Of a DNA stretch of 35,241 bases, positions 351-27,479 are shown in pieces. The DNA lies in the IMG/VR virus record IMGVR_UViG_3300049830_000114, positions 1 to 35,241 of that record. The stretch is one strand, 5' to 3'. Origin of the DNA: a virus. Under the pieces are notes generated by a model. That model did no database searches and was not told the DNA's origin. It saw only the letters and a program-made list of their open reading frames with translations. A program made the position numbers and the translations under genes. Position 1 is the stretch's first letter, and each line of letters starts with the position of its first letter.

Positions 351-1931
351 CTACTTTATAGGATTGTTAGGACTTGTCAATAAGTATTTAATAAATTTGG
401 CTTGGCCTGCGTCGAAAATGCGATAGAGATTAAGCTCTTTTGCGTGTTGTCTCTCTGTGAGACCACGCTCATCCATATTAGCCATACAATGAGATCTATC
501 ATAAGTTTTAATCATATCCGTCCATTTAAACCCTAAAGTAATGCCCTTTTTAGGTAAAACAAACCCTAATTTTTTAAGACTATTCCCGTTACCATATCTC
601 AAATCAACATAAGAAGTTATAAATTCATATTGCGGATTTTTCTTAACAATCTCAGACAAAAGTTTAGATAGGGCTCCAGATACAGAATATCCTATCTTAC
701 AGCAAAATCTAGATATATCACAGCCATTACCAGATTTTCTATAAGCAATTAAGCTAACTAATTCATCTTTATCGTATAAACCTATACCTTTAGACGCAGA
801 ATGGTCTCCCATAAGATGGTTAGCTTTTAAAAAAGAAGAAATATCAACTCGATCAACGACCTTAACTTGCAACTTGCGGGCATGCAGTTTTTTATCAAAA
901 ATGCCAATTTTATATCGTATAAGAGATCTAACAATAGCCTTATTAAATACCAATTCATCCTGTCTAATTTGTAAAAGATCAAGCCCTTGGGCGTCATAGT
1001 CCTCTCTTTTCTTCATGTGGTATCTTTTATCAGGCTTTCGTAGTTCAGAATGGGTAGATAACCCGTCAGTATCAACATATATAGATTTGCCAGTTAAGTT
1101 ATTAATTATTTTAAAGTCTGGACGCCAGAATTTATTTATCTTTTTATCACCCTTACGTGGCATTTTTTTAACTTCAGGGCAAGATTTTTTGCCAAGATGC
1201 TTACAGGTTACGTTTTCGCCAAAATCAACTCTCATCATTTTTAATTCGAGACTAGATGTATTATCCTTATAAGCCGAGATCCAATCCTCTAAGGCTTGTA
1301 ATCCATCATCTTGGGCAATGTTCAGCATATGGACATAAGACATTCCAGTTCGAGCCGCTAGTTGTCTTATACTTTCACCAGAAGAAGTTATAAATTGTGC
1401 CTGTTCTTGGCTAGAGGTAATTCTAGCTCTTTCTGGATGCCTCTGCCCTGTAAGGACTTTTCCTACAATATTAACGAATTCACCATATTCTTTATCAATA
1501 AAGGTAGCGTGTTTATTAGTTCCTAGATAGCTTTCAGCTATAATCTCAATAGTGCCCTTATGGGTGTCTTTTATTTTACGAATCACTTCATTTATTGGCA
1601 AAATCTTCTTCTGTGCCGCAGACTGATGAGTCCCAGTCGTAATATTATTTTTAGCAGCTATCTTTTTAATAAATTCATAACAATATCCAGATCTTCTAAC
1701 CTCTTTAACCGTTTTACCAGAATTAAGGAGTTCAATAATTTCTTTTTCTTTTTCAATTAAACTATCTTTATTAGTTTTAAGAGTAATACTATTGCGTTTT
1801 GCATGGGTTTCAATGGTAGATCTACTAGTATCCATTAACTCACTTATTTGGTAACAGAATAATCCCTCTTCTGCATATTTTTTCAATAAGTTTATGTCAA
1901 TTTTCACTCTTAATGGTAATTCTTTTTTCAT
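351..1931 (-). CDS. Free-standing homing-endonuclease-like protein (VSR-like nuclease with HTH N-terminus)
   Basis: 526 residues, probably a mobile site-specific nuclease. The N-terminal third has three helix-turn-helix-like stretches (about residues 15-45, 63-95 and 180-215). The middle part (about 255-335) has VDTDGLSTHSE followed by a Tyr/Lys-rich helix and GLDLLQIRQDE, the pattern of VSR-like (EDxHD/Hef-type) phage homing endonucleases. The C-terminal part (about 345-515) has the NHLMG, SYVDLRYGNG and LGF motifs of a module often attached to phage homing endonucleases; it looks GNAT/Mom-like to me. The gene lies just after the capsid-gene terminator and has no clear ribosome binding site, fitting late insertion of a mobile gene. 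Target site and activity are unknown. Confidence 0.7.
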   Translation of the reverse strand: MKKELPLRVKIDINLLKKYAEEGLFCYQISELMDTSRSTIETHAKRNSITLKTNKDSLIEKEKEIIELLNSGKTVKEVRRSGYCYEFIKKIAAKNNITTGTHQSAAQKKILPINEVIRKIKDTHKGTIEIIAESYLGTNKHATFIDKEYGEFVNIVGKVLTGQRHPERARITSSQEQAQFITSSGESIRQLAARTGMSYVHMLNIAQDDGLQALEDWISAYKDNTSSLELKMMRVDFGENVTCKHLGKKSCPEVKKMPRKGDKKINKFWRPDFKIINNLTGKSIYVDTDGLSTHSELRKPDKRYHMKKREDYDAQGLDLLQIRQDELVFNKAIVRSLIRYKIGIFDKKLHARKLQVKVVDRVDISSFLKANHLMGDHSASKGIGLYDKDELVSLIAYRKSGNGCDISRFCCKIGYSVSGALSKLLSEIVKKNPQYEFITSYVDLRYGNGNSLKKLGFVLPKKGITLGFKWTDMIKTYDRSHCMANMDERGLTERQHAKELNLYRIFDAGQAKFIKYLLTSPNNPIK

Positions 1932-2022: not shown

Positions 2023-3423
2023 CTATTTTACGTTATCGATTAACACGTTAAATCTTGGTAATTTCACGGTTAATGCAGTGAAGCGATAATAAGCTTTTGG
2101 AGTTGATAAATCGGTTTTTGCAAGCTCAATTGATTTAAAGCTTGACAATTCGCCCATTTCCATGCCCCTCATGTCCAGAGCAAAAGCCGTCGCCATTCCT
2201 GGTAACTTGTTGTTCAAGTCAACAAAAGTAACAGCAGCTGCGCCATTAGCCTTAACACGACCAATGTATTGACGTTTAGAACCACCAGCTTCTGATCTAT
2301 AGATATTATAGAAAAGAGCAGCGATACCGCCAGTTGGAGTGATTGCGATAGAAACTGAGTCACCATTAGCAACGATAGTCGCAGTAACCGCAGCAGATTC
2401 TTGACCTTCACCGATTACGTTTACAGCAGTAGCAGAGTACTTGTAAACCTCAGCAGCTAAGAAGCTAGTACCAGCAGCAGAAGTGATCGCTGGAGCACCC
2501 ATTGAAGGAGCAGCAGGAGCATTAGCGCGTGGTTTAGCAGGTTTTTGTTTAGGTTGCAAGAAAAGTGAACTTTCTACTGTGATCGCGCCAGCAACTGTTG
2601 ACTGTTCGTTAAGAGCAGCACCAGTTGATTTTTGTGGCGAACCAGCCAATACGATACGTTCTTTGTTGAACGCGATCTTATTGTAGTTACCATGAGCTTG
2701 CGGGCTTAAGTAGATTTTTTCTACTTGACCATTATGGATAGCTGAAGTAGTCGCTACGTCTTCAACAGTAGCTTGTGCAAGCGTACCGTTTTGCGGAATA
2801 ACAACAGAAACATCGCCACCGTATTCGTCAAACATTAAATCTTTAGTAGAGATATCGTAGTCACTGTTACGGATTTGTGGGTCCAAACCATGCATCCCTG
2901 GCTCTTCTTGCGACATCGCCAAAGGGTTACCATCAAAAACACCAGCATTAGAATAGTCAGCATGACCTTTAAATGAATGGAATTCGATATCGCCTTGGAT
3001 TTTCATCGCTGCATCAGCATCAACGCGATCTTCAGCTTTTACGCCGTCGAAAGTAGATACTAATTCAGATTGCAATGTGCGACGACGAACGTGTACGTAG
3101 TAAGCCATAGGAACTACGGCACGTACAATGTTAGAAGTTTCTTCTTGACCAACTTGGCCTTCAAGAACAGCAGATCCACCAAATTGACCGTAGTCAAGTT
3201 GACGATTAAACTGAACCAAAGTTGATTTAACTTGGTTAGATTTAAAAATCTTCTGCAATTTAATTGCTTGTGATTGGAAAGTAGTAACATTCATGATGTT
3301 GCTAAGATCTTCCATTTGTAATGCAGAACCTTGGGTAAGGGTGCCAGGTGCGGCGTTGTAACCACCAGCTTCCAGTGCCTTTTTCAGTTCTTCGATTTGC
3401 GTTTGTAATTTTTCTACAGACAC
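2023..3423 (-). CDS. Major capsid protein (HK97 fold, SPO1/Twort-like layout)
   Basis: 466 residues from a GTG start behind AGGAG. It forms the icosahedral head shell. The order of features matches SPO1/Twort-type capsid proteins: an N-terminal arm, a segment beginning about residue 38 (DLSNIMNVTTFQSQ) with the basic RRRTLQS stretch, then a Pro/Ala-rich linker (about 290-305), an Ig/FnIII-like insertion (about 308-410, with YKYSATAVN and YNIYRS), and a C-terminal strand that completes the HK97 fold. Residues 13-36 repeat a motif also found in the prohead protease. The gene is last in the head operon, after scaffold-like and protease genes, and is followed by a terminator, as expected for the most abundant product. 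The identity is inferred from layout and neighbours; no search was run. Confidence 0.85.
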   Translation of the reverse strand: MSVEKLQTQIEELKKALEAGGYNAAPGTLTQGSALQMEDLSNIMNVTTFQSQAIKLQKIFKSNQVKSTLVQFNRQLDYGQFGGSAVLEGQVGQEETSNIVRAVVPMAYYVHVRRRTLQSELVSTFDGVKAEDRVDADAAMKIQGDIEFHSFKGHADYSNAGVFDGNPLAMSQEEPGMHGLDPQIRNSDYDISTKDLMFDEYGGDVSVVIPQNGTLAQATVEDVATTSAIHNGQVEKIYLSPQAHGNYNKIAFNKERIVLAGSPQKSTGAALNEQSTVAGAITVESSLFLQPKQKPAKPRANAPAAPSMGAPAITSAAGTSFLAAEVYKYSATAVNVIGEGQESAAVTATIVANGDSVSIAITPTGGIAALFYNIYRSEAGGSKRQYIGRVKANGAAAVTFVDLNNKLPGMATAFALDMRGMEMGELSSFKSIELAKTDLSTPKAYYRFTALTVKLPRFNVLIDNVK

Positions 3424-3432
3424 TTGATTCTC

Positions 3433-4272
3433 CTATTTGTTAAAAAGTTGTAAAACTTTATCGTTAATTTGTTTAGTGTGGAAATAACCTTGTAAAGTAT
3501 CCATTTCTGATTTATTTAAAGATTGGAGCGCGAATCGGTCTTTAGCGATGCTGTCCATTTTTTTAAATACTTCAGAGGCAGAAGGGTTATTGCCTTTTTC
3601 TTTTTTGTTTAAATCTTCACCACGACCAACTACTTGAACATCTTTAATCTCAGTCACGGCTTTAGGGCGTGGCGTTGAAGCAGATTTAGTAATCGTCTCA
3701 GTAATCGTCAACACAGAAGCTTGTAAGTTAGCAAAATTCTCTTCGGATTTAGCCAGTTTAGCTTTCATGCTTTCAAATTCAGATTTCATCGCCATATCAG
3801 CTGGAGCCATCTGTTGAGACGCCTCTGGAGCTGGAGAAATATTATCTGTAGATTCTTCAGGAGCAGGTTGTTGCTGAGATTGTCTAGATTCCATTTCCAT
3901 CTGAACAACTTGCATCAATTCCTGTAACATTCCATCATCAAGGCTAGACACTAAACCATGTAAGTCTGCGCCATCATCTTGTTGCTGGTCAGGCTGTTGG
4001 TCTGGAGCAGGAGCGTCTTGAGGAGGCTGTGCAGAAGCATCTGGAGCTGGTGAACTAGACATTTCGTCTTTTTTCATCTCAGCTTTAGAACTTTCCTTAC
4101 TAGATTCTTCTTTTTTAGACTCTTCCTTAGATTGCTCTTTGCTTGATTCTTCTTTTTTACCTAAAGTTTTTAATTTTTCGTTCTCGCTTTTGATAAGGGT
4201 ATCAATTGTACTGATAGCCTCACCAATTAGCTCATCAACATTAAGATCTTTTTTATCTTTATTAGCTGGCAT
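3433..4272 (-). CDS. Scaffold-like low-complexity head assembly protein
   Basis: 279 residues. The start is ATG 4272 (MPANKDKK), placed 8 nt after GGAG; a longer reading frame would need a TTG that is part of that ribosome binding site. Residues about 40-70 are Lys/Glu/Ser-rich, about 73-105 are Pro/Gln/Asp/Ala-rich, and about 155-200 are predicted coiled coil. The C-terminus is a short helical domain. A charged, Gln-rich, helical protein encoded between the protease and the capsid gene is typical of a scaffolding protein that is removed or cleaved during prohead maturation. No family was recognised from sequence; the role rests on composition and position. Confidence 0.6.
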   Translation of the reverse strand: MPANKDKKDLNVDELIGEAISTIDTLIKSENEKLKTLGKKEESSKEQSKEESKKEESSKESSKAEMKKDEMSSSPAPDASAQPPQDAPAPDQQPDQQQDDGADLHGLVSSLDDGMLQELMQVVQMEMESRQSQQQPAPEESTDNISPAPEASQQMAPADMAMKSEFESMKAKLAKSEENFANLQASVLTITETITKSASTPRPKAVTEIKDVQVVGRGEDLNKKEKGNNPSASEVFKKMDSIAKDRFALQSLNKSEMDTLQGYFHTKQINDKVLQLFNK

Positions 4273-4302
4273 TTTAATCTCCAATTCTTTAATAAAGTTA
4301 AA

Positions 4303-4755
4303 TTATTGACCTGATTGTGGCCAGTTATAGCTAGAAAGAACACCGAATGAGTTAGTTGCTGTGCATGAACCGTCAGCCGCAAACATAGACGCCGCAGGAG
4401 CTGCATCAGTGAAACGCTCAGAGAAAACGCCTTGACGAGCTAGTTCCCAATCAAGATCCATTTTTACTTTAAGTAAAACAGTAGATACAGTAGCTGAACC
4501 AGCTTCAATTACTTGACATACGCTTGGTGCATAAGCTGATTTAGCTAAACCCAATACGTCAGTAAATTGATTAGCTTGGCTTTTATAGCGCAAAGCTACT
4601 TGAACAACAGCTGAACCATCTTTAATTAAAAGAATTGGGCCTTGTGTGTCGCTTGATTCTACAACAGTCCATGGTAATGCTTGGCCTTTAATACGACCTT
4701 CAAGCTTGCTTTTTAATTGATCTTTTAAGCTATTAAGTTTAGCTAAATTAGACAT
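4303..4755 (-). CDS. Putative head structural or decoration protein
   Basis: 150 residues, ATG start behind AAGGAG. After an N-terminal helix (SLKDQLKSKLEGR) the protein is mostly beta-strand-like, with few charged residues and Ala/Ser/Thr-rich C-terminal segments ending in a Trp-Pro-Gln tail. No motif was recognised. Its place between the prohead protease and the scaffold-like gene, 30 bp upstream of the latter, suggests a head component such as a decoration protein. It is the first gene after a 147-bp intergenic gap, so it may begin a high-expression unit that includes the capsid gene. Confidence 0.5.
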   Translation of the reverse strand: MSNLAKLNSLKDQLKSKLEGRIKGQALPWTVVESSDTQGPILLIKDGSAVVQVALRYKSQANQFTDVLGLAKSAYAPSVCQVIEAGSATVSTVLLKVKMDLDWELARQGVFSERFTDAAPAASMFAADGSCTATNSFGVLSSYNWPQSGQ

Positions 4756-4859
4756 TTCGTTCTCCTTAAATATGTTTTAGTTCTTAAACAACTCTAATAA
4801 AATTAGGTTTTTTGCGTAAGTAACCGTTTTTGTTTATGTTTTTCAAATAAAAAACATTA

Positions 4860-4892
4860 ATTATACAAAATATAAATAAAATCTATTGACAA
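4860..4892 (-). promoter_or_regulatory. Possible leftward promoter before the capsid gene unit
   Basis: The 147-bp gap 4756-4902 is very AT-rich. On the minus strand it contains a perfect TATAAT (4860-4865) and a TTGTCA (4887-4892). The spacing of 21 bp is too long for a standard sigma70 promoter, so only the -10 is convincing. It would give a leader of about 100 nt before the 4755 start. A promoter read by another sigma factor could also lie here. Confidence 0.3.
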
Positions 4893-4902
4893 AATCTTGC
4901 GA

Positions 4903-5859
4903 TTAGTTAATAGATTTGTAAATTTTCTCGCACGTTTCCAATGTTCTATCGAAAAGATGCTTCTTTAGTGCTTTGAGGACTTTTTTCGCGTTTTCATCAG
5001 TGAGAGTAGGGACTGCTTTCTTTACAGAATCTTCGGTAAGAGACGTTTTTGCCATCTTACGGGCTAGCTTAGCTAGGTTTGATTCTTTTTGTAAAGCACT
5101 TCCTCCTGTCAGACTTGACGGAGCAGCGTCTTGTCCTCCCGCAGTTAAAGCTTTCTTGAGATCAGAAAGTGCATTAGACAATCCGAAATCATTAAAAGTT
5201 TTTTCCACGAAGATTTGCTGCATTGAAACTGATTTGTACAAAGGTTCATTTACATCCATCGAAGCCCTATATTCAGACTTGTTGACTCGTGATGAGTTAG
5301 AACCGTTTGTATTATCAGATGAAATATGAATCCAAGCTTGTTTGTTGCATGGCTTGAGTGTCCCAGCAAGGCGACGTATGCAAGTTTCTTTAAGAATATT
5401 GCCATTTTCTCTCTTAAGAGTTGACCCTTCCACGGAAAGACCGAATTGTGGACCATCAGGGTCCTGATCAAACATTCTTATTAAAGCCGCAGCTGCGCGA
5501 GAATTGTCTGGGGCATCATCGCCATCATAAATCTCGACTTTGCCATAAATGAGCGGGATTTTTCCGTTTTTCTTAAATGAGTCTAATTCTTTATCAGTAG
5601 AACAGTCGTCCTCATCAAAGATTTTCTTAGCAGTGAGGACTCGACCAATAATAGTATCAAAACCTTTAGGCTCATCTTTTTTAGCGCTTTTATTTTTTTC
5701 AAAATCTTCGGGGTTTTGGTGCTCCAGATTAACTAGACTTTTTCCTGCGGTAAGGTCTGAGATGTCGGCACCCCGGATATCCAGGACTTCGCCCGAACTA
5801 TCGATGGCTTGACTCGCAAATACCCCTTCCATAATAAGATTCTTCTTCAAACTACTCAT
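4903..5859 (-). CDS. Prohead maturation protease (S78/U35-like serine protease)
   Basis: 318 residues. The N-terminal about 175 residues carry a prohead protease pattern: GEVLDIRGADISDL, the catalytic His in VNLEHQ (His47), GRVLTAKKIF, and the nucleophile in GLSVEGS (Ser142), then RRLAGTLKPCN. The C-terminal about 140 residues are a separate charged, helical part. It includes residues 234-257, which repeat a motif at the N-terminus of the major capsid protein. This may be a cleavage or recruitment segment. The ATG at 5859 lacks a good ribosome binding site; Met10 (LIMEGVFASQ) is an alternative start that would still keep the whole domain. It is the first leftward gene after the plus-strand small-gene cassette. 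Confidence 0.8.
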   Translation of the reverse strand: MSSLKKNLIMEGVFASQAIDSSGEVLDIRGADISDLTAGKSLVNLEHQNPEDFEKNKSAKKDEPKGFDTIIGRVLTAKKIFDEDDCSTDKELDSFKKNGKIPLIYGKVEIYDGDDAPDNSRAAAALIRMFDQDPDGPQFGLSVEGSTLKRENGNILKETCIRRLAGTLKPCNKQAWIHISSDNTNGSNSSRVNKSEYRASMDVNEPLYKSVSMQQIFVEKTFNDFGLSNALSDLKKALTAGGQDAAPSSLTGGSALQKESNLAKLARKMAKTSLTEDSVKKAVPTLTDENAKKVLKALKKHLFDRTLETCEKIYKSIN

Positions 5860-8049: not shown

Positions 8050-8867
8050 GACTTTCTCTGTTTCTCAAACTCATCCCACAAGTTTCCGTTTTCATCACGG
8101 CCCTTGTAGGTGATTTTACCTGCTTCGAAGCCAAAGCCAGGGCTTAGAAGCGTGAGAACGTCCCGGCAATTCGGGTGTGTAGTGCTTATCGAGGCGATAG
8201 GGTTCTTCCAATCGCCAGCACTTCCAGATAATTCGCTAAGTTTATAAACTCTTGGAGTGATTCGATCTTCCGACATCCATAAGCGCCAGCAGTGCTTGCA
8301 CTTCTTTTCATCATTAACGCCGAGTTTGCAGACCGTAGGATCTTCGATGCCCATATTTTGGGCTGCATGTAGAATCCCATCAAAAGCACCAAAGTTAGCT
8401 GCAGTATTTAATTCATTCTCAACTATTGTAGTAGCACTAGACTTCATTTTATCGACATAGCCATTAAGATTATCTCTAAATTTCTTATAAAGCTCTTTAC
8501 CTTCGTCTTTGTAAGAAATATCTTCGGTAGATACACCCATTATTTTACTTTTTACTTCAAGATCATGAGTATAATCTGTAATCATTCTAGAGATATCCGT
8601 AAAACTCTTCTGCTCCAAACCTTCAATATGATTTAATGCGTTATTTTCAATAGCCGTTAGTGTTTTTTTATCAAAACTATCTGGACTAGAACTATGCATC
8701 GTATTTGCATTAACGTAGGCGTGTCCTAGTGTGCTTTGAGGATTGTAGTTTTTGAGAGTAAAGATGAAAGACTTGTTAACAAAATTAGGACCGAGAAGGT
8801 TAGCCTTTAGCCCTTCGGTAGTTCCTAGAACTAAGTTTTTAATAATCTTGATTAGATTCTTATTCAT
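8043..8867 (-). CDS. Minor head protein, MuF/SPP1 gp7-like
   Basis: 274 residues from ATG 8867 (MNKNLIK), which overlaps the portal stop by 8 bp; Met at 8873 and 8900 are alternatives. The N-terminal two thirds are helical. The C-terminal part has the MuF pattern: KKCKHC (Cys190, Cys193), a KLSEL stretch, then THPNCRDVLT (His231, Cys234) and GFGFEAGKITY, consistent with a small metal-binding domain. Such proteins bind the portal and may be ejected with DNA. Position directly downstream of the portal supports this. It converges with the small-gene cassette with no visible terminator between. Confidence 0.75.
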   Translation of the reverse strand: MNKNLIKIIKNLVLGTTEGLKANLLGPNFVNKSFIFTLKNYNPQSTLGHAYVNANTMHSSSPDSFDKKTLTAIENNALNHIEGLEQKSFTDISRMITDYTHDLEVKSKIMGVSTEDISYKDEGKELYKKFRDNLNGYVDKMKSSATTIVENELNTAANFGAFDGILHAAQNMGIEDPTVCKLGVNDEKKCKHCWRLWMSEDRITPRVYKLSELSGSAGDWKNPIASISTTHPNCRDVLTLLSPGFGFEAGKITYKGRDENGNLWDEFEKQRKSQ

Positions 8868-10824
8868 GCCCATCTTCGCACTTATGAGGCTTTTGACCAT
8901 TTATAGCTGCCAATAACGATTCAGCCATATCTTTTGAATCTTTTTCAAACTGATCTAATACTTTTTTCTTAGCTGCTCTATGTTTTTTGAGTAAGTCTTT
9001 TCTTACTGGAGAAAGATTTGCCTCAGATTTAGAAAGAGATGCATCTAGCTGACCAATAGCCGAATCTAAGTCTTGGCTTTGAGCTAGCTCAGGTAACTGT
9101 TGCTGACCTTGTCCGCCTTGTGGCGGTTGACCTTGCTGTTGAGCCATAGCTTGTTGTTGCATCTTCATTTGTTGCATCTGCAACCAGACTGGATCTCCCA
9201 TATAGTATTGAAGATCTGGATCTTTATCTGCATTTGCAAATGCTTTACCGCCAAAGGCTTTTAGGATTTCACCTTTTTTAAAGTATTTTTCGATAACTTG
9301 CTGGAATGCAGGATTTAATGGAAAATCGCCGCCAATAGGAACGTCTTCATTTTCTACACGATGCATTATATCATTCATTGTTAAAAACAATGAAGCATCT
9401 TGAGTTATTAGCGTAGATTCTTTTTCAGGAGAATTTGCATCTAATCCTTCAAGATTTATCTGGACCATATTAGCCCATTCGGGATTTATTTTAGGCAAAA
9501 GACGTTCATTAAAAAAATCTTCAATAGACATTAATAAGGGTCTGATGCCAGCATCACGAGCAGCGATAGTCTTAAACTCGTTATTCGACTCTGCCAAGGA
9601 TTGAGAATTTGTTCCACGACTTAAATAAGAAAGAGCAGGAACTTCATCTGGACTCATCTGGAACCCGGCGAAGATAATTCTTTTATTCAAATCTGCCAGG
9701 TACTGGTACTCCATATCCTTAGATGAAGGATCTACACTAACTATTGAAATCTCATCAGTTGGTTTAATACCAAACACTGGTAATCGACCAGACGCACCTG
9801 CAGAATTAATATGCGCAGTCATCTGATTCTTAATGTTGATGATATCTTCTTTTTCCAGATCTTCTGATTTAAAAACCATTACACTTTTGTAAGATCTTCC
9901 ATTAATAAAGAAAAGCTTGTTAGAAGTTGTAAGATTGATATGAGTCGTGATTGCACTCAAAATACGCTCAAGTGGCGATACTGGATATCCGTTGCGATTT
10001 ACGTCAGTTGATGGGTAAGCATTCCAAAAAATAAGCTCATCGTCTGTAAATACTTCGGCAGGCATGCCTTCTAAAACTTGAGCATAAGTATACTGATCGT
10101 CTTGAAGTTTCTTAGGCTGAATTTTCTCACCAAGAAGTTGCTGCAATGCAATCAACGCCTGCTGCCTAATCTTTTCGGCTTCTTTGCTCTGTTCATCTTT
10201 TTTGTTGATGAAGTAAATCGTCCCTGCATCACGAGCACGGAAACTATGGAATTTACCATTATCGTCTTTGATGACTTCGACCGCAAATCCGCCGTAAGTA
10301 AGTAAATCTTCCACGATCTCATAAAAGAACTGAGAAAGATTACGCTTTTGCTTGTCCGTGATTTCGGCATTACTGCCGCAATTAAGAAGGATCTCTTTAA
10401 GTTTAGGGATAATCTCAAGCTTAACTTTTTTCTTCTCTTCGTCGCTAAGCTTATCTTCGATGTCTGGTTTAAGATTTACGGTATAGCCTACGTCGAATCG
10501 ATTCGCACGAGGTCTCGAAAACAGTGTTGCCTGCTTAGCTTTGGTCGGGATAATAATACCGCCGACAAGTTCTTCCGAGTCTCTGATACGCTTAGCTACG
10601 TCTGGAGGAAGGCCTGCGGTTCTGCTTTTATATAAATTCTTATACGAAGTGCCTGAAATGTTAGGATTCTCTTCGAATGCCAAAGTCACGATTTTACTAA
10701 CTCTGTTGTCTTCTTTTTTCTTTAAGTCTTCAAGAATCAGCGATAGCACGTCTTTAGGAGTGCCAGATTCCATCTCCATCATTGCCACTTCTGACTTTTT
10801 AGAATCCTTCTCTTTATCAGACAC
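8860..10824 (-). CDS. Portal protein
   Basis: 654 residues, GTG start behind GGAG. The portal is the dodecameric ring at the head vertex through which DNA is packaged. The sequence has portal-like features: DLLTYGGFAVEVIKD, a crown/wing region with YPVSPLERI, the LNKRIIFAGFQMSPDEV stretch, SRGTNSQSLAESNNEFK and a helical stem. The C-terminal about 100 residues are rich in Gln/Met/Pro then Lys, a flexible tail. It lies between an unknown structural gene and the MuF-like gene, the usual neighbour. The assignment is by motif recall and synteny. Confidence 0.8.
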   Translation of the reverse strand: MSDKEKDSKKSEVAMMEMESGTPKDVLSLILEDLKKKEDNRVSKIVTLAFEENPNISGTSYKNLYKSRTAGLPPDVAKRIRDSEELVGGIIIPTKAKQATLFSRPRANRFDVGYTVNLKPDIEDKLSDEEKKKVKLEIIPKLKEILLNCGSNAEITDKQKRNLSQFFYEIVEDLLTYGGFAVEVIKDDNGKFHSFRARDAGTIYFINKKDEQSKEAEKIRQQALIALQQLLGEKIQPKKLQDDQYTYAQVLEGMPAEVFTDDELIFWNAYPSTDVNRNGYPVSPLERILSAITTHINLTTSNKLFFINGRSYKSVMVFKSEDLEKEDIINIKNQMTAHINSAGASGRLPVFGIKPTDEISIVSVDPSSKDMEYQYLADLNKRIIFAGFQMSPDEVPALSYLSRGTNSQSLAESNNEFKTIAARDAGIRPLLMSIEDFFNERLLPKINPEWANMVQINLEGLDANSPEKESTLITQDASLFLTMNDIMHRVENEDVPIGGDFPLNPAFQQVIEKYFKKGEILKAFGGKAFANADKDPDLQYYMGDPVWLQMQQMKMQQQAMAQQQGQPPQGGQGQQQLPELAQSQDLDSAIGQLDASLSKSEANLSPVRKDLLKKHRAAKKKVLDQFEKDSKDMAESLLAAINGQKPHKCEDGHE

Positions 10825-11855: not shown

Positions 11856-14800
11856 TTAGTCAATATCCCACACTATTGAACCACTTTTTGATACAATTGT
11901 GCCAGTCGCTTTCTCGTCCGTATGGGCGTTAATTTCCTTAGAAAGCCAGTTATCGTAGTTTTTAGATACTTCTTTGTTGTATTTGTCTCTGATTTGGTCT
12001 GGGGTCATTTTTACTTGAGGCTGATCTAAAAGATGATTCTTGCCTTTTGGCTGGAATAGGTTTTGACCAGCGTAACGGAGAGCATCAGCTATATCAGCAA
12101 ATTCTCCGTCATCTGGCTCTCTGGTGATGTTACCTAACTGGTCAAGCATAAAGGTATGTTCTGCAAACATTTTAAAGTAAAGCTCATTCCTATCAGTTTT
12201 AATAACTTTTAATCTTCTAACGCCAGAAGCATCAACAATTTGAGTCCTGATAGCATTTATTCCAGCATCAATATCTTTTTTAAATTCGGCACATGGCATT
12301 TTATTTTTATTAAATGTTTTAATTGATTGAGGAGCGCTAGTATCTGCAAACCATTTTTTAGGTTTATACTTGTCTCTTACTTCAATAGCCAAGCTCAGTT
12401 GCTGATCAAATTCAAGACCAGCCACAGAATAAGAGTCTACCAGCCAGAATTCCCCATTAGGCATTAGGACACAAACACCTATTGCATAGAAATGGCGGAA
12501 CCCCCAATCTAGAAAAGCATAGAATTTTAATTCATTCTTCTTTAAAAGATTTATAAGATCTTCAAATTCAATTTTACTGTTTATTTTTTCTCCAGTATAA
12601 GATTCCCAAGCTTGATTAACCGTATACGAATTACCAGTGCCATCTTCTTTATTTATAAATCTAGGATAAACCATACCTTGACTAGACGGCTTACGGCTTA
12701 ATAATTGAGCTTCAGCCAAATCTGGATCTGTTTTTTTGAATTGAGTGATAGTAAAATCGATAGGCTTCCATAACCCACCTTTATCACTTTCACTCCGATG
12801 AGCCAGTTGACTCCTACAGACTGGAAGTATCGGACAGTTAGCACAGCCACTGTAGGTGTTAATTTTTGTATAATTTTCTTTTTCTTTAGATGTTAAGTCA
12901 TTATATTGAGGCTCGGTCAAAGACGACATTGGAAGCTCATATCTTACATATCTATCTTCTTTAGGAAGATCGGGGCGATGACGGGATTCTGGGCACTTTT
13001 CAGTAATATCTATGATATTCCATTTAAAAGTTTTCCAATTTTCCTTGCGGGACATTTCAATTTCTTTAGAGAAAAGTCCACCAGGAAATTTAAGCGTAGA
13101 GGTTTTAATAGTGAGAGGATGCTGTCCGTTAAATACCCCTGGGATCATTTGTGCTTCTTTATATGCTCTAATCCCTTCCTTACTGCGCACCGTATCGATC
13201 TCATCAAAACAATTATGTGTTAATAGTCCATTAGAAAAAAAATTATGATTACCTTCTACAGTAAAGTCATAGTACCGTCTATTATAAATAGCGGGTTTAA
13301 TTTTAATTACTTTTACCTTCTGTAATTGGCGATTTTTGGCCGCTTGACAGTCAACGTCAGAGCAGTAATATGATACCGCAGTATATATGTATTCTGAATT
13401 ACAATTTTTACATTTTTTTATAGATTTATTTAAGAGACCATCAAATTTGTACATTAAAGACGGATGAATGTATTTTTTTGTTATTTCATATAATTTATAA
13501 GTGCTTATTACATCTATATGAATCGTACAATATTTTTTCCCTCTAGTATTATACTCTTTAATGACGCAATCTATGTCAAATTTATTCTTTAAAACTTCTT
13601 TTAATTTTAAATTCTGCTCATAAGTAAATGATTGTGTATTTAAAGTAGCTGTGCCTGTGACTCTTGAACCTGAGCCGTCATCCATAAACCAAACAGCAAG
13701 ACCAAGGGCTTCTATTTTATCTAAGCCATCAAGAGTTTTCCTAAACCCAAACCAATCACTTAAATCTTTAGTAAGATTAGAGCAGAAAGCTATTTGTTCT
13801 GCCCCAGTATATCCGCTCTTAGCTCCTTTATTTTGATACATTTTAAAAGATTTAGATAAAATATTCATTTTCCAGATGGCATAATCTTTTTGCTTAACAC
13901 AGTGTCTGAAAGATATGTGAGGATTACCGATGTGCTTAGCCTCTAGTCCTTTTTTTATATCTTTATAATTCCTCTTCTTATAACATCCCATATCTCCTAG
14001 AAGTCCGCCAATAATAACTTGTTCAACATCATTAAATTCTGGCTCTTTATATTTTATTTCAGGGAATTTGTCAAAATACTTATAATTATCAATTTTATCT
14101 TCAGCTTTTTGTTTTGTAATTTTATAAACGCTTTTACCAATAAGTTTAGATATCTCTTCATAACCATTTTCAGAGTAAAATTTATGATCGGGTGTGCAGG
14201 TAACAATAGTACCATCTTCAAAGTATACATCTACTCCCTTTTTATTACCATTATCGTATTGAGCTATTATTTTTTTAAATTCACATTTACCAGTTTGATG
14301 ATTAAATGAATAAGCTTCAATTTCCTTACCTTGTTGTAATAATTTGTATAATTTACTAGCTCCTATTTTAGATCGAATCCTTTTGGTTCCTTTTATATTT
14401 TTTATTAATATATCAGTTTTACCAGAAACACATAAGATATTGCTATGAGAACTATTCGCACCTGAAATTGTGCAAACAACTATTCTCATCCATGCCGAGT
14501 TACCATTATCATCTGATATCTTCACTTCTTTAATATTCTGACTAGTTACTTCTCGTCCATGATGCGTCATGTATGGAGATATAGAAGATAGGAATTTTTG
14601 AACATAATTTTGAGCTGCGGCTGCTTGAGAGGTAATTGCAGCCATATGACATATAGTAGCATTAAAATGAGTCATAAGAATAACTGCCATCGCACTCTGA
14701 GAAAGTGTCTTATAACTCTCTCGACTAGAAACGGTAATTACAGATGGAGACTCGTTACACTTATTATCTCTATACATTTGATAAACATCCCACATCCAAT

Positions 14801-14945
14801 CGATAGGACTACTATTAGATTCTGGGTCTACAAATGAATCAGGCAAATCCAAGCCAAAGAAAATATGTATCCAGTCTTTCATTTGCTGTTTAGAGTAGAA
14901 ATTAGTTAGAAATATTTTAGATAGGGCTTTAAATTCTGCAGTCAT
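11856..14945 (-). CDS. terL: Terminase large subunit interrupted by an intein
   Basis: 1029-residue precursor; removing the intein (172-578) leaves a terminase of 622 residues. TerL is the ATP-driven packaging motor and headful or site-specific nuclease. N-extein: a Walker A-like SSRESYKT (74-81). The join SNIL|CFDEID restores the Walker B strand and catalytic Glu. C-extein: a Cys cluster CANCPILPVC, then RNase H-like nuclease motifs FLDWGF, ADTSAPQS and GEFADIADALRYA. The gene overlaps the upstream putative TerS gene as TAATG. Walker A has Tyr where Gly usually precedes Lys-Thr. Splicing is needed for activity because the intein splits the ATPase site. Confidence 0.92.
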   Translation of the reverse strand: MTAEFKALSKIFLTNFYSKQQMKDWIHIFFGLDLPDSFVDPESNSSPIDWMWDVYQMYRDNKCNESPSVITVSSRESYKTLSQSAMAVILMTHFNATICHMAAITSQAAAAQNYVQKFLSSISPYMTHHGREVTSQNIKEVKISDDNGNSAWMRIVVCTISGANSSHSNILCVSGKTDILIKNIKGTKRIRSKIGASKLYKLLQQGKEIEAYSFNHQTGKCEFKKIIAQYDNGNKKGVDVYFEDGTIVTCTPDHKFYSENGYEEISKLIGKSVYKITKQKAEDKIDNYKYFDKFPEIKYKEPEFNDVEQVIIGGLLGDMGCYKKRNYKDIKKGLEAKHIGNPHISFRHCVKQKDYAIWKMNILSKSFKMYQNKGAKSGYTGAEQIAFCSNLTKDLSDWFGFRKTLDGLDKIEALGLAVWFMDDGSGSRVTGTATLNTQSFTYEQNLKLKEVLKNKFDIDCVIKEYNTRGKKYCTIHIDVISTYKLYEITKKYIHPSLMYKFDGLLNKSIKKCKNCNSEYIYTAVSYYCSDVDCQAAKNRQLQKVKVIKIKPAIYNRRYYDFTVEGNHNFFSNGLLTHNCFDEIDTVRSKEGIRAYKEAQMIPGVFNGQHPLTIKTSTLKFPGGLFSKEIEMSRKENWKTFKWNIIDITEKCPESRHRPDLPKEDRYVRYELPMSSLTEPQYNDLTSKEKENYTKINTYSGCANCPILPVCRSQLAHRSESDKGGLWKPIDFTITQFKKTDPDLAEAQLLSRKPSSQGMVYPRFINKEDGTGNSYTVNQAWESYTGEKINSKIEFEDLINLLKKNELKFYAFLDWGFRHFYAIGVCVLMPNGEFWLVDSYSVAGLEFDQQLSLAIEVRDKYKPKKWFADTSAPQSIKTFNKNKMPCAEFKKDIDAGINAIRTQIVDASGVRRLKVIKTDRNELYFKMFAEHTFMLDQLGNITREPDDGEFADIADALRYAGQNLFQPKGKNHLLDQPQVKMTPDQIRDKYNKEVSKNYDNWLSKEINAHTDEKATGTIVSKSGSIVWDID
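13212..14432 (-). mobile_element. Class 1 intein with LAGLIDADG endonuclease in TerL
   Basis: 407 residues (172-578 of the precursor). Splicing residues are all visible: Cys1, block B T-x-x-H (TCTPDH, Thr80/His83 of the intein), block F RRYYDFTVEGNHNFF, and the terminal LLTHN followed by Cys+1. The centre holds a two-motif LAGLIDADG endonuclease (IIGGLLGDMG about 140-149; LGLAVWFMDDGSG about 243-255), so it may still be able to home. Unusually, a four-Cys zinc-ribbon-like segment (CKNC about 341-344 and CSDVDC about 357-362) precedes the C-terminal splicing block. Insertion is two residues before the Walker B Asp-Glu. Confidence 0.93.
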
Positions 14946-24692: not shown

Positions 24693-27479
24693 ATGTATCA
24701 AACCGTTAAGGCTAAGACCGCAGCTAAAAAAATGACATCTAATCAGACTTCGCTAAAAAAAGCCATCTTAGATACCGTAGGAGAGGCTTCTGCTGTTGTT
24801 GGGGCTACAATGGGTCCCAATGGTAAGGTGTCCTTAATTGAACGTCAGGAGAACCTGCCTCCGTTCGTTACAAAGGATGGTATCACTGTATTTAACTCAA
24901 TGGCATTTGCTGACCCTACTAAGCAGGCTATCCTTGAGGCTGCTCGTGATGCATCAGCCAAAACCAATACCGAAGCAGGGGACGGACCTCAACCGCTATG
25001 GAGTAAGATATTAACTCCCGATGGATTTATCCAGATGAGTGAAGTTGAAGTAGGTATGGATATTTGTGGAACTAACGAAACCATACAGAAGGTCTTGGGG
25101 GTCTATCCAAAAGGGCAGAAAGAAATTATTGAAGTTGAATTTTTTGACGGTCGAGTTGTAGAATGCTGTGAAGACCATTTATGGACCGTTACTACTAATT
25201 ATGGAAGTAATAAAGCCTTAACTACAAAAGAGATGATGAATGACTTCTTGTCCACTTCTTCGGAAGGACAGAATAGATATAAATATTACACCCCAAGAAC
25301 TAAGATTGAGTACAAGGCTAAATTAAGACAGTTTCCATTAGATCCTTATTTAGTTGGGTTACTAATTGGAGATGGTTCTTTAACAGGAACAGGTTCTGTA
25401 GAATTATCTTTGGGTAAGAATAAAGAACATATTCTAGATAAAATTAAATTACCAGATGGATTGTTTTTAAAAACGTATTGGGTTGAAAAGAAAAATTATT
25501 ACAGAGTTAAAATACAGGGAAAGACTTTAGATAATAAGACTATTCGAGATTTTGTTAAAGAAATAGGATTAGATGGGTCATATAGCGAAACAAAGCACAT
25601 TCCTTCTATGTATTTATTGGCTTCTAAAGACGATAGAGTGAGTCTTTTAAGGGGGTTGCTTGACACTGACGGGTATATAAATGATAGAGAAAGATTTGAA
25701 TTCAGTACAGTGAGCGATGAATTGGCAAAAGATTTCATTTTTTTAACTAGGAGTCTAGGCGTTAGTTTGTACTGTAGAGTTCATCATAGAAAAGAGGGAG
25801 AAGGGTCGTATTCTCAAAAAAGCATACACAAAATTACGGAACTTAAGGGCGACAAGTATGGGGATAAAATAATTCATATACGAGCTACTGGGAAGTTCAC
25901 CGACATGCAATGCATCAAAGTAAGTAATCCTGATAATTTATATATAACAGATAATTTTATTGTTACACACAATACTACAACCGCTACAGTTTTAGCTGAG
26001 TCTCTTATTAGGTTAGGCTTTAATTATCTCGAAGCTAATCCTAAGTTATCTACCCAAAAGGTTATGCGTGAGCTTGAAGTAGTTCATAGAGACGTAATCT
26101 CTCCATTCATTAAAGAAAACTCATTAAAGATTAAATCAGATGATGGTCAAGATCTTTTACGCAAGGTATCGATGATTGCTACTAATAGCGATACGGAAAT
26201 GACTAATGCGGTTGTAGAAGCTTTTGATTTAGTCGGTCATAATGGTAACGTCACTATTTCCGAAGACTCTGGTCCGTCAGGATATTACGTAGATAAACTT
26301 AACGGCTTCCCTATTCCAAGAGGGTTTGAGGATAGCTGTGGGCGCTTCTTAGAAGAGTTCATCAACGATAAGGCTAATTACAGAACCGTATTAGATAAGC
26401 CTCGATTCATCTTATACAATGGTCAAATCAAAGACGTTGGTGTAATGATGAATGTCTTAAATAAGATTATTGGAGATTCAATCCCTGAAGATGAATCTCA
26501 GCCATCTACGGCATCTCCTAATGTTGTCATTATGGCCCATGGATTTTCAGATACGATGTTAGCCTTCTTTGCTCGTAACTTTAAACAAGAAGGTACTCTA
26601 AACCTGTTACCTTTAAAAACTCCACTCTCTCCTCAAGCCAACGGGCAATATCATTTCTTGTTAGATGTATCGGCATTTACTGGAGCTAAGGTTTTTGACC
26701 CATTAACTACGCCATTACAAGAGGCTGAATTAGATGAATTGGGCAATAAAAATATGCACTACTTTGAATTCTATCGTTATAAGGCTTTAATCGTAGGTGA
26801 TCCTGACGAAAGTACTTTATTCCCACGAATCGAAGAACTTGAGCAGCAGGTTAAAAATCACGAGAGTATTATTGATAAAGAAATGATCAATGAGCGCATG
26901 GCTATCCTTTCAGGAGGCATTGCTAAGATTAAGGTTATTGGATCTTCAGAATCCGAGATTAAGGAAAAGAAGGCTCGTGTAGAAGATGCCGTCTGTGCTG
27001 TTAAGGGTGCTTTACGGTCTGGCGTATTGCCTGGTGGGGCTCGAACCCTGCTAGTCTTAGCTAAGATGATCTTAACTGGCAATTACTCAAAAGCCGTTAA
27101 AAGAATCTTAGGCGAGGCTTATCAAGTCCCTGCCAAGCGCATCTTGAGCAATGGTGGCTATAATGAAGATGAAATTAAAGAAGTTTTACGACAACACGAT
27201 AATAATAATGACTTTTTCTTTACCTATGATAGTCTGAATGAGAAGTATGGTGATGCGGTAGAGTTGGGCTTAATCGATTCAGCAGAGGCAGTGGCTATGG
27301 CGATTAAAAATAGTTTATCAGTAGCAAAGATGCTTATGGGCTTATCTTCTGTTATCGTATTCCAGCGTGATTTTGAAGATGAAATTGACCGAGCTAAAAA
27401 ATATGATTATCAGCAGGAGACTATTTCAGCTGCACAAGAACGAGAAGTGCAGGAGAGATACAATGATGACCGTCAATAA
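24693..27479 (+). CDS. groEL: GroEL-type chaperonin interrupted by an intein
   Basis: 928-residue precursor; without the intein (99-427) it is 599 residues, somewhat longer than bacterial GroEL (548). GroEL is the double-ring ATP-driven folding machine. Conserved elements: VVGATMGPNGKVSL and FVTKDGITV (ATP pocket), then AGDG|TTTATVLAESL, the nucleotide-binding loop split by the intein. After the intein come intermediate and apical regions (GYYVDKLNGFPI), KEKKARVEDAVCAVKGALRSGVLPGGA with the Asp equivalent to GroEL D398, and the equatorial end with DSAEAVAMAIKNSLSVAKMLM. The C-terminal tail is charged, not the Gly-Met repeats of bacteria. A phage chaperonin would fold capsid or other virion proteins. 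Confidence 0.93.
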   Translation: MYQTVKAKTAAKKMTSNQTSLKKAILDTVGEASAVVGATMGPNGKVSLIERQENLPPFVTKDGITVFNSMAFADPTKQAILEAARDASAKTNTEAGDGPQPLWSKILTPDGFIQMSEVEVGMDICGTNETIQKVLGVYPKGQKEIIEVEFFDGRVVECCEDHLWTVTTNYGSNKALTTKEMMNDFLSTSSEGQNRYKYYTPRTKIEYKAKLRQFPLDPYLVGLLIGDGSLTGTGSVELSLGKNKEHILDKIKLPDGLFLKTYWVEKKNYYRVKIQGKTLDNKTIRDFVKEIGLDGSYSETKHIPSMYLLASKDDRVSLLRGLLDTDGYINDRERFEFSTVSDELAKDFIFLTRSLGVSLYCRVHHRKEGEGSYSQKSIHKITELKGDKYGDKIIHIRATGKFTDMQCIKVSNPDNLYITDNFIVTHNTTTATVLAESLIRLGFNYLEANPKLSTQKVMRELEVVHRDVISPFIKENSLKIKSDDGQDLLRKVSMIATNSDTEMTNAVVEAFDLVGHNGNVTISEDSGPSGYYVDKLNGFPIPRGFEDSCGRFLEEFINDKANYRTVLDKPRFILYNGQIKDVGVMMNVLNKIIGDSIPEDESQPSTASPNVVIMAHGFSDTMLAFFARNFKQEGTLNLLPLKTPLSPQANGQYHFLLDVSAFTGAKVFDPLTTPLQEAELDELGNKNMHYFEFYRYKALIVGDPDESTLFPRIEELEQQVKNHESIIDKEMINERMAILSGGIAKIKVIGSSESEIKEKKARVEDAVCAVKGALRSGVLPGGARTLLVLAKMILTGNYSKAVKRILGEAYQVPAKRILSNGGYNEDEIKEVLRQHDNNNDFFFTYDSLNEKYGDAVELGLIDSAEAVAMAIKNSLSVAKMLMGLSSVIVFQRDFEDEIDRAKKYDYQQETISAAQEREVQERYNDDRQ
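24987..25973 (+). mobile_element. Class 3-type intein with LAGLIDADG endonuclease in GroEL
   Basis: 329 residues, Pro1 to Asn329, inserted between GDG and TTT of the ATP-binding motif. It has no Cys/Ser at position 1 but carries the class 3 triplet: Trp in block B (EDHLW, Trp66), Cys in block F (DMQCIKVS, Cys309), and Thr in block G (IVTHN, Thr327) with Thr+1. In this class the block F Cys makes the first attack. A LAGLIDADG endonuclease lies in the centre (GLLIGDGSL about 124-132; LRGLLDTDGYI about 221-231), with both acidic residues present. Class assignment is by motif and should be tested. Confidence 0.9.

Follow-up and report, generated by a model that had tools for sequence, protein, structure and literature searches.

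In a 35-kb viral fragment of the IMG/VR database (record IMGVR_UViG_3300049830_000114, 35,241 nucleotides, analysed as the entire record and called here the window), the major capsid protein and the prohead maturation protease share a module of 24 residues. This module is probably a maturation-cleavage site together with the arm that follows it on the P' side in SPO1-type capsids, the arm co-evolving between capsid and protease.

The two copies are encoded on the minus strand, the capsid one at 3316..3387 (residues 13-36, LKKALEAGGYNAAPGTLTQGSALQ) and the protease one at 5089..5160 (residues 234-257, LKKALTAGGQDAAPSSLTGGSALQ). As the initial annotation of this DNA had stated, 18 of their 24 residues are identical, and its claim that the match is kept at the protein level with differing codons holds too, since just 41 of the 72 bases agree and different synonymous codons are used at 16 of the 18 identical residues (2/18 with the same codon). 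The two arms align with a score of 83, whereas none of 20,000 composition-preserving shuffles of the capsid segment scores above 52. When the capsid arm was compared with every other open reading frame of the window, the protease scored 78 and the runner-up 35, and when the protease was used as the query, the capsid arm was its sole other match in the window (E = 4.8e-7). The capsid copy falls in a predicted disordered region following a helix at residues 3-19, with a predicted local distance difference test score (pLDDT) below 50 for residues 19-47. The protease copy is placed by the structural model in a low-confidence, predicted disordered linker that joins the protease domain to a helical tail, which according to this model is an accessible place for the module. 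Among the aligned relatives, the protease module is conserved as strongly as the catalytic motifs.

The same arrangement recurs in a wide range of phages. The 58 capsid/protease pairs that we compared range from those of Mx1-like phages to those of SPO1, phage 812 of Staphylococcus and Touem01 of Pseudomonas. These relatives were gathered via the capsid and Mx1; the protease itself, used as a direct query against viral contigs, gave no match. In each related locus the capsid arm was aligned to all other open reading frames, and the scores were compared with the maxima reached by shuffled arms. In most loci the protease is the best match of its own capsid arm, with scores usually of 51-127 against shuffled maxima of 36-49. 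The copy was found in SPO1, 812, Listeria LP-125, Brochothrix A9 and Enterococcus EF24C, and likewise in Bacillus BSP18, Mammaliicoccus PMS3, Pseudomonas Touem01 and Thermus Cumys. In three cases (G001, L023 and L026) the protease is encoded elsewhere on the contig and bears the copy there, weakly in L026. The scaffold was rejected as a third carrier of the arm, the second-best matches in the loci being near the shuffled-arm level. In the locus L088 (331-2109, minus strand), on the contig of L038, a long low-complexity insert displaces the module to protease residue 376, which shows that its distance from the protease domain is not fixed.

The arms of capsid and protease do not simply resemble each other in general, but match best within the same phage. 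For the 55 pairs with capsid identity below 90%, the mean arm score was 84.0 for own-phage pairs and 48.8 for swapped ones. When the pairs were permuted within clades, the observed mean was reached in 0 of 20,000 permutations, both for these 55 pairs and for the 23 pairs below 60% identity, whereas a control comparing the next capsid segment with the protease domain gave p = 0.40 and 0.24, respectively. Taken clade by clade, the effect is significant for B (11/20,000) and for C (0/20,000) at the 60% limit, and for the window's own clade A at the 90% limit (6/20,000, n = 22). If the arms had evolved independently, shared ancestry alone would not favour own over swapped pairs. The joint changes can be read directly in Brochothrix A9 (KSMTTGYNHGGTDQ / KSMTTGYEHGGTDQ), where both proteins have HGGTDQ, and in Thermus Cumys (TAGDPHALDFKAGLSGVPAIRLESLE / TAGDPHALDPKSGLTGVPAIRRESLE), where both have TAGDPHALD and GVPAIR; GRALI occurs in both L060 proteins, and an insertion is common to both L061 proteins. 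The covariation that the initial annotation had suggested looking for in other phages is thus present.

The position of the match relative to a conserved lysine points to what the module may do. With the pairs aligned on this residue, within-phage identity is about 0.1 upstream, with the exception of a hydrophobic P3 (mostly Leu), rises to 0.94 at the P1 lysine, stays high from P1' through about P25' and then drops. The lysine is kept in 58/58 capsid arms and in 55/58 proteases. In the virion structures of phage 812 (9row/9rox/9roz), the major capsid protein chains begin at Ser25 of the precursor (SFQTGYG), directly after K24. The match thus starts where a capsid is known to be cut, and what is conserved in it is the arm that is retained. 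The aligned site in the window, K15|A16 (3376..3381, minus strand), is therefore the predicted maturation cleavage site of the capsid, a prediction supported by homology to phage 812. In the same register, K236|A237 of the protease (5149..5154, minus strand) is a candidate autocleavage site, and cleavage there, which we infer from this correspondence, would release a predicted C-terminal propeptide of 82 residues (4906..5151, minus strand) made of the arm and a helical domain at 261-317, with predicted helices at 261-269, 276-282 and 288-317 (block pLDDT 78-88). The initial annotation had offered two roles for the motif. The first, a site cut in both proteins, is plausible with a different position, as the cut would fall at the motif start (K15|A16) rather than remove the arm, and the mature capsid, by homology to phage 812, would lose residues 1-15 alone and keep most of the motif as its N-terminal arm. 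The second, a common signal targeting both proteins to the prohead, stays plausible as well, with the protease, the shell and the scaffold as the candidate readers of the arm.

Several observations weigh against this reading of the module. At the 60% limit, clade A does not reach significance (1319/20,000, p = 0.07, n = 6). The proteases of Bacteroides DAC19, L010, L027/L089 and L045/L090 have no significant arm copy despite their related capsids, which indicates that cleavage of the capsid does not strictly depend on the copy, and the copy is weak in the proteases of Thermus Lalka27b and, as mentioned, L026. Chryseobacterium MA9V-3 is a further exception, in which the protease gene is uncertain. 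Regarding the lysine, the proteases of Cumys and Iacchus lack it at the exact position, having K[AS] 3-6 residues upstream, and the L065 protease has an arginine in its place. Finally, the linker of the window protease contains further candidate sites at K194, K209 and K220. As a separate observation, the copy-less proteases L089 (469-2052, minus strand) and L090 (1441-2715, plus strand) keep hydrophobic-x-K[AST] sites.

The assignment of both genes is based on several lines of evidence. The capsid gene (2023..3423, minus strand, 466 residues, GTG start) matches the PHROGs family phrog_752, major head protein (E = 2.2e-47), and its product is 45% identical to the major capsid protein of Myxococcus phage Mx1. 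According to the predicted model, its HK97 fold is closest to SPO1 (9vel_A, Z = 31.5, 391 aligned residues, root-mean-square deviation 3.4) and phage 812 (5lii, Z = 24.8), the next one being SU10 (18.8). The protease gene (4903..5859, minus strand, 318 residues) is recognised by neither Pfam nor PHROGs, so its identity rests on homology to Mx1, gene order and fold: it shares 39% identity with the putative Mx1 prohead protease, lies between the portal (8860-10824) and the capsid genes on the same strand, and its model resembles T4 gp21 (5jbl_B, Z = 10.1, 124 aligned, root-mean-square deviation 2.8) and the herpesvirus assemblins (Z = 7-9.6). Its residues H47 and S142 are invariant in 17 homologues and, by analogy, would be the catalytic His and Ser.

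Between these two genes lies a putative scaffold or core gene (3433..4284, minus strand), whose product is acidic and of low complexity. This gene has no family match in Pfam or PHROGs, and its position is that of the scaffold genes in SPO1 (gp3.3) and phage 812 (gp93). Across 19 scaffolds the pattern hydrophobic-x-K[AS] occurs 119 times against 21 expected (5.6-fold; maximum 38 in 500 shuffles), compared with 11 against 12.7 expected in the capsid cores. This enrichment is consistent with a protease that breaks down the scaffold by cutting there; the candidate scaffold sites of the window are K200|S (ITKS, 3682..3687, minus strand), K32, K179 and K258. Since the scaffold proteins bear this short site without the arm, the module from P3 to P25' is longer than the protease site needs.

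According to the mechanism that we propose, a serine protease of the gp21/assemblin type (H47, S142) would cut after lysine at hydrophobic-x-K|(A/S/T). Cutting of the capsid at K15|A16 would remove a 15-residue propeptide and leave the arm as the mature N-terminus, the scaffold would be cut at several such sites, and the protease would most likely cut itself at or near K236|A237, freeing its 82-residue helical propeptide headed by the arm. Because of the covariation, we infer that the stretch of approximately 25 residues following the cut is kept alike in both proteins because one binding partner reads both. This partner could be the protease, binding the long arm on the P' side both in cis and in trans for substrate docking and zymogen control, or else a procapsid surface on which both arms would dock, with the protease being built in as a mimic of the capsid arm. 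Both processes may also take place at once.

If the arm served for substrate recognition alone, an exosite of the protease would read P1'-P25' and both arms would be preferred substrates, with no docking on the shell. The exact register with the scissile lysine favours this reading by the protease itself, and three-way co-evolution would follow naturally from it. However, the arm is missing from the scaffold, which is presumably a substrate too, and the capsids of L027 and L045 keep canonical arms even though their proteases have lost the copy. We regard substrate recognition as the sole function as quite conceivable, without holding it to be the probable one.

A targeting signal alone would imply that the protease arm mimics the capsid N-terminal arm in order to bind the procapsid lattice or scaffold at the site of the capsid arm and so be encapsidated, the lysine being incidental or secondary. 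The absence of the arm from the scaffolds, which makes it unneeded for cutting as such, and its persistence in Cumys and Iacchus despite the shifted lysine both favour docking on the shell, and the protease tail of SPN3US, discussed below, has been proposed as an encapsidation signal. On the other hand, the register with the P1 lysine is exact in 55 of the 58 proteases and nothing is common upstream of P3, whereas a pure docking mimic would not need such a register. We tend to doubt that targeting is the only role, while taking it as a possible one.

Mx1-like phages provide a variation on this theme, since many of them have the protease as the N-terminal portion of a protein of 700-1640 residues. 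In these polyproteins the arm is followed by a GGDEF domain, with its signature seen (L028 4272-8066, L033 2675-7594 and L037 5935-8118), or by a PI3/PI4-kinase-like domain (L035 1978-6687, L036 2597-6871 and L039 2396-6484), weak in L035 and L036; the L035 polyprotein has, in addition, DUF6321 after the arm and a weak ParB_N match (294-351) before it. Polyvalent proteins, which combine several domains and are packaged and injected by phages, include some with GGDEF domains (PMC5512222). The order protease, K|A, capsid arm and enzyme is suggestive of head-loaded cargo. A wider proposal, which we consider rather unlikely, would be that the protease tail, by mimicking the capsid arm, places the protease in the growing shell lattice, and that in Mx1-like phages the arm behind K|A also loads the fused enzymes (GGDEF cyclase, kinase-like). 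If true, one cut would free capsid-tethered effectors inside the head, to be ejected with the genome. On the same contig as L028, a third gene (L067, 9611-10624, 337 residues) carries a 50-residue copy of the capsid N-terminal arm, with 36 identical residues, of which 23 share the codon. In contrast to the protease copies, this one is apparently a duplication of capsid DNA.

That third gene is also one of two points in favour of a recent event of DNA duplication or gene conversion involving the capsid and protease genes, the other being L052, with 16 of 22 same codons against 7.5 expected. Over all pairs, however, the same codon is used at 457 of 1040 identical residues, against 448 expected from codon usage, and DNA copying is thus not the general cause of the match; together with the small codon agreement in the window, this leaves gene conversion a very improbable explanation. 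Chance or low-complexity resemblance, to which a segment rich in A, G and L might lend itself, is refuted by the shuffles, none of which (0/20,000) reaches the score, and by independent repetition in dozens of loci, and can practically be dismissed.

Prohead proteases, N-terminal cleavage of capsids and auto-removed propeptides were already known. T4 gp21, whose fold the model of the window protease shares, cuts the capsid, the core proteins and itself, and a short conserved peptide beside the cut serves to bring proteins into the prohead (PMC9958956). The capsid targeting sequence of T4 is an N-terminal peptide of about 10 residues that is removed by the protease, and the module studied here is not of this type: it has about 25 residues on the P' side, is common to capsid and protease, and is N-terminal in the capsid alone, where it would be retained, lying near the C-terminus in the protease. 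Phage SPN3US represents a likeness in its protease, gp245, which auto-removes a C-terminal propeptide of 64 residues; its authors propose that this tail serves to bring the protease into the prohead (PMC7411985; PMC10052503); autocleavage occurs in SPN3US and is predicted here. However, gp245 cleaves after AXE, and a capsid-arm copy in its propeptide goes unmentioned in the parts of PMC7411985 and PMC10052503 reached by keyword search. The capsid cut of HK97 (FNK|S) is of the same site type, and the deposited chain 2fs3_A aligns from residue 104. Nevertheless, the proteases of HK97 and D3 have no significant arm copy, which rules out universality across HK97-type phages, and there the scaffold is fused to the capsid protein.

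The closest systems are those of the Herelleviridae SPO1 (gp6.1/gp3.2) and phage 812 (gp94/gp92), which have the same capsid fold, the same gene order and the module in both proteins, with no basic difference from the window. The Cps protein of A511 is reportedly cut after lysine, according to N-terminal sequencing, which we take as a lead and not as evidence. A long, co-evolving copy of the capsid arm in the protease is undescribed in the literature searched, which did not cover the SPO1 and A511 genome papers or the one on the HK97 gp4 domain, so that an earlier notice is possible.

The window holds other elements of interest. A free-standing homing/HNH-type endonuclease (351-1931, minus strand) lies just past the end of the capsid gene. 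A phage GroEL-like chaperonin (24693-27479, plus strand) contains an apparent LAGLIDADG intein, which interrupts the conserved GDG/TTTAT nucleotide-binding loop. A protein of 1029 residues (11856-14945, minus strand) has intein-splicing and LAGLIDADG domains at 207-578, its host protein being possibly the terminase, given its place beside the portal.

Beyond T4 and HK97, little is understood of the way in which prohead proteases are recruited, silenced and directed to the capsid. A co-evolving module of 25 residues, present in SPO1 and phage 812, for which capsid structures exist, offers a precise experimental handle on these questions, and gives a rule to predict mature N-termini across such phages. 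By analogy with capsid targeting in T4, it may also represent a peptide with which proteins could be loaded into such capsids.

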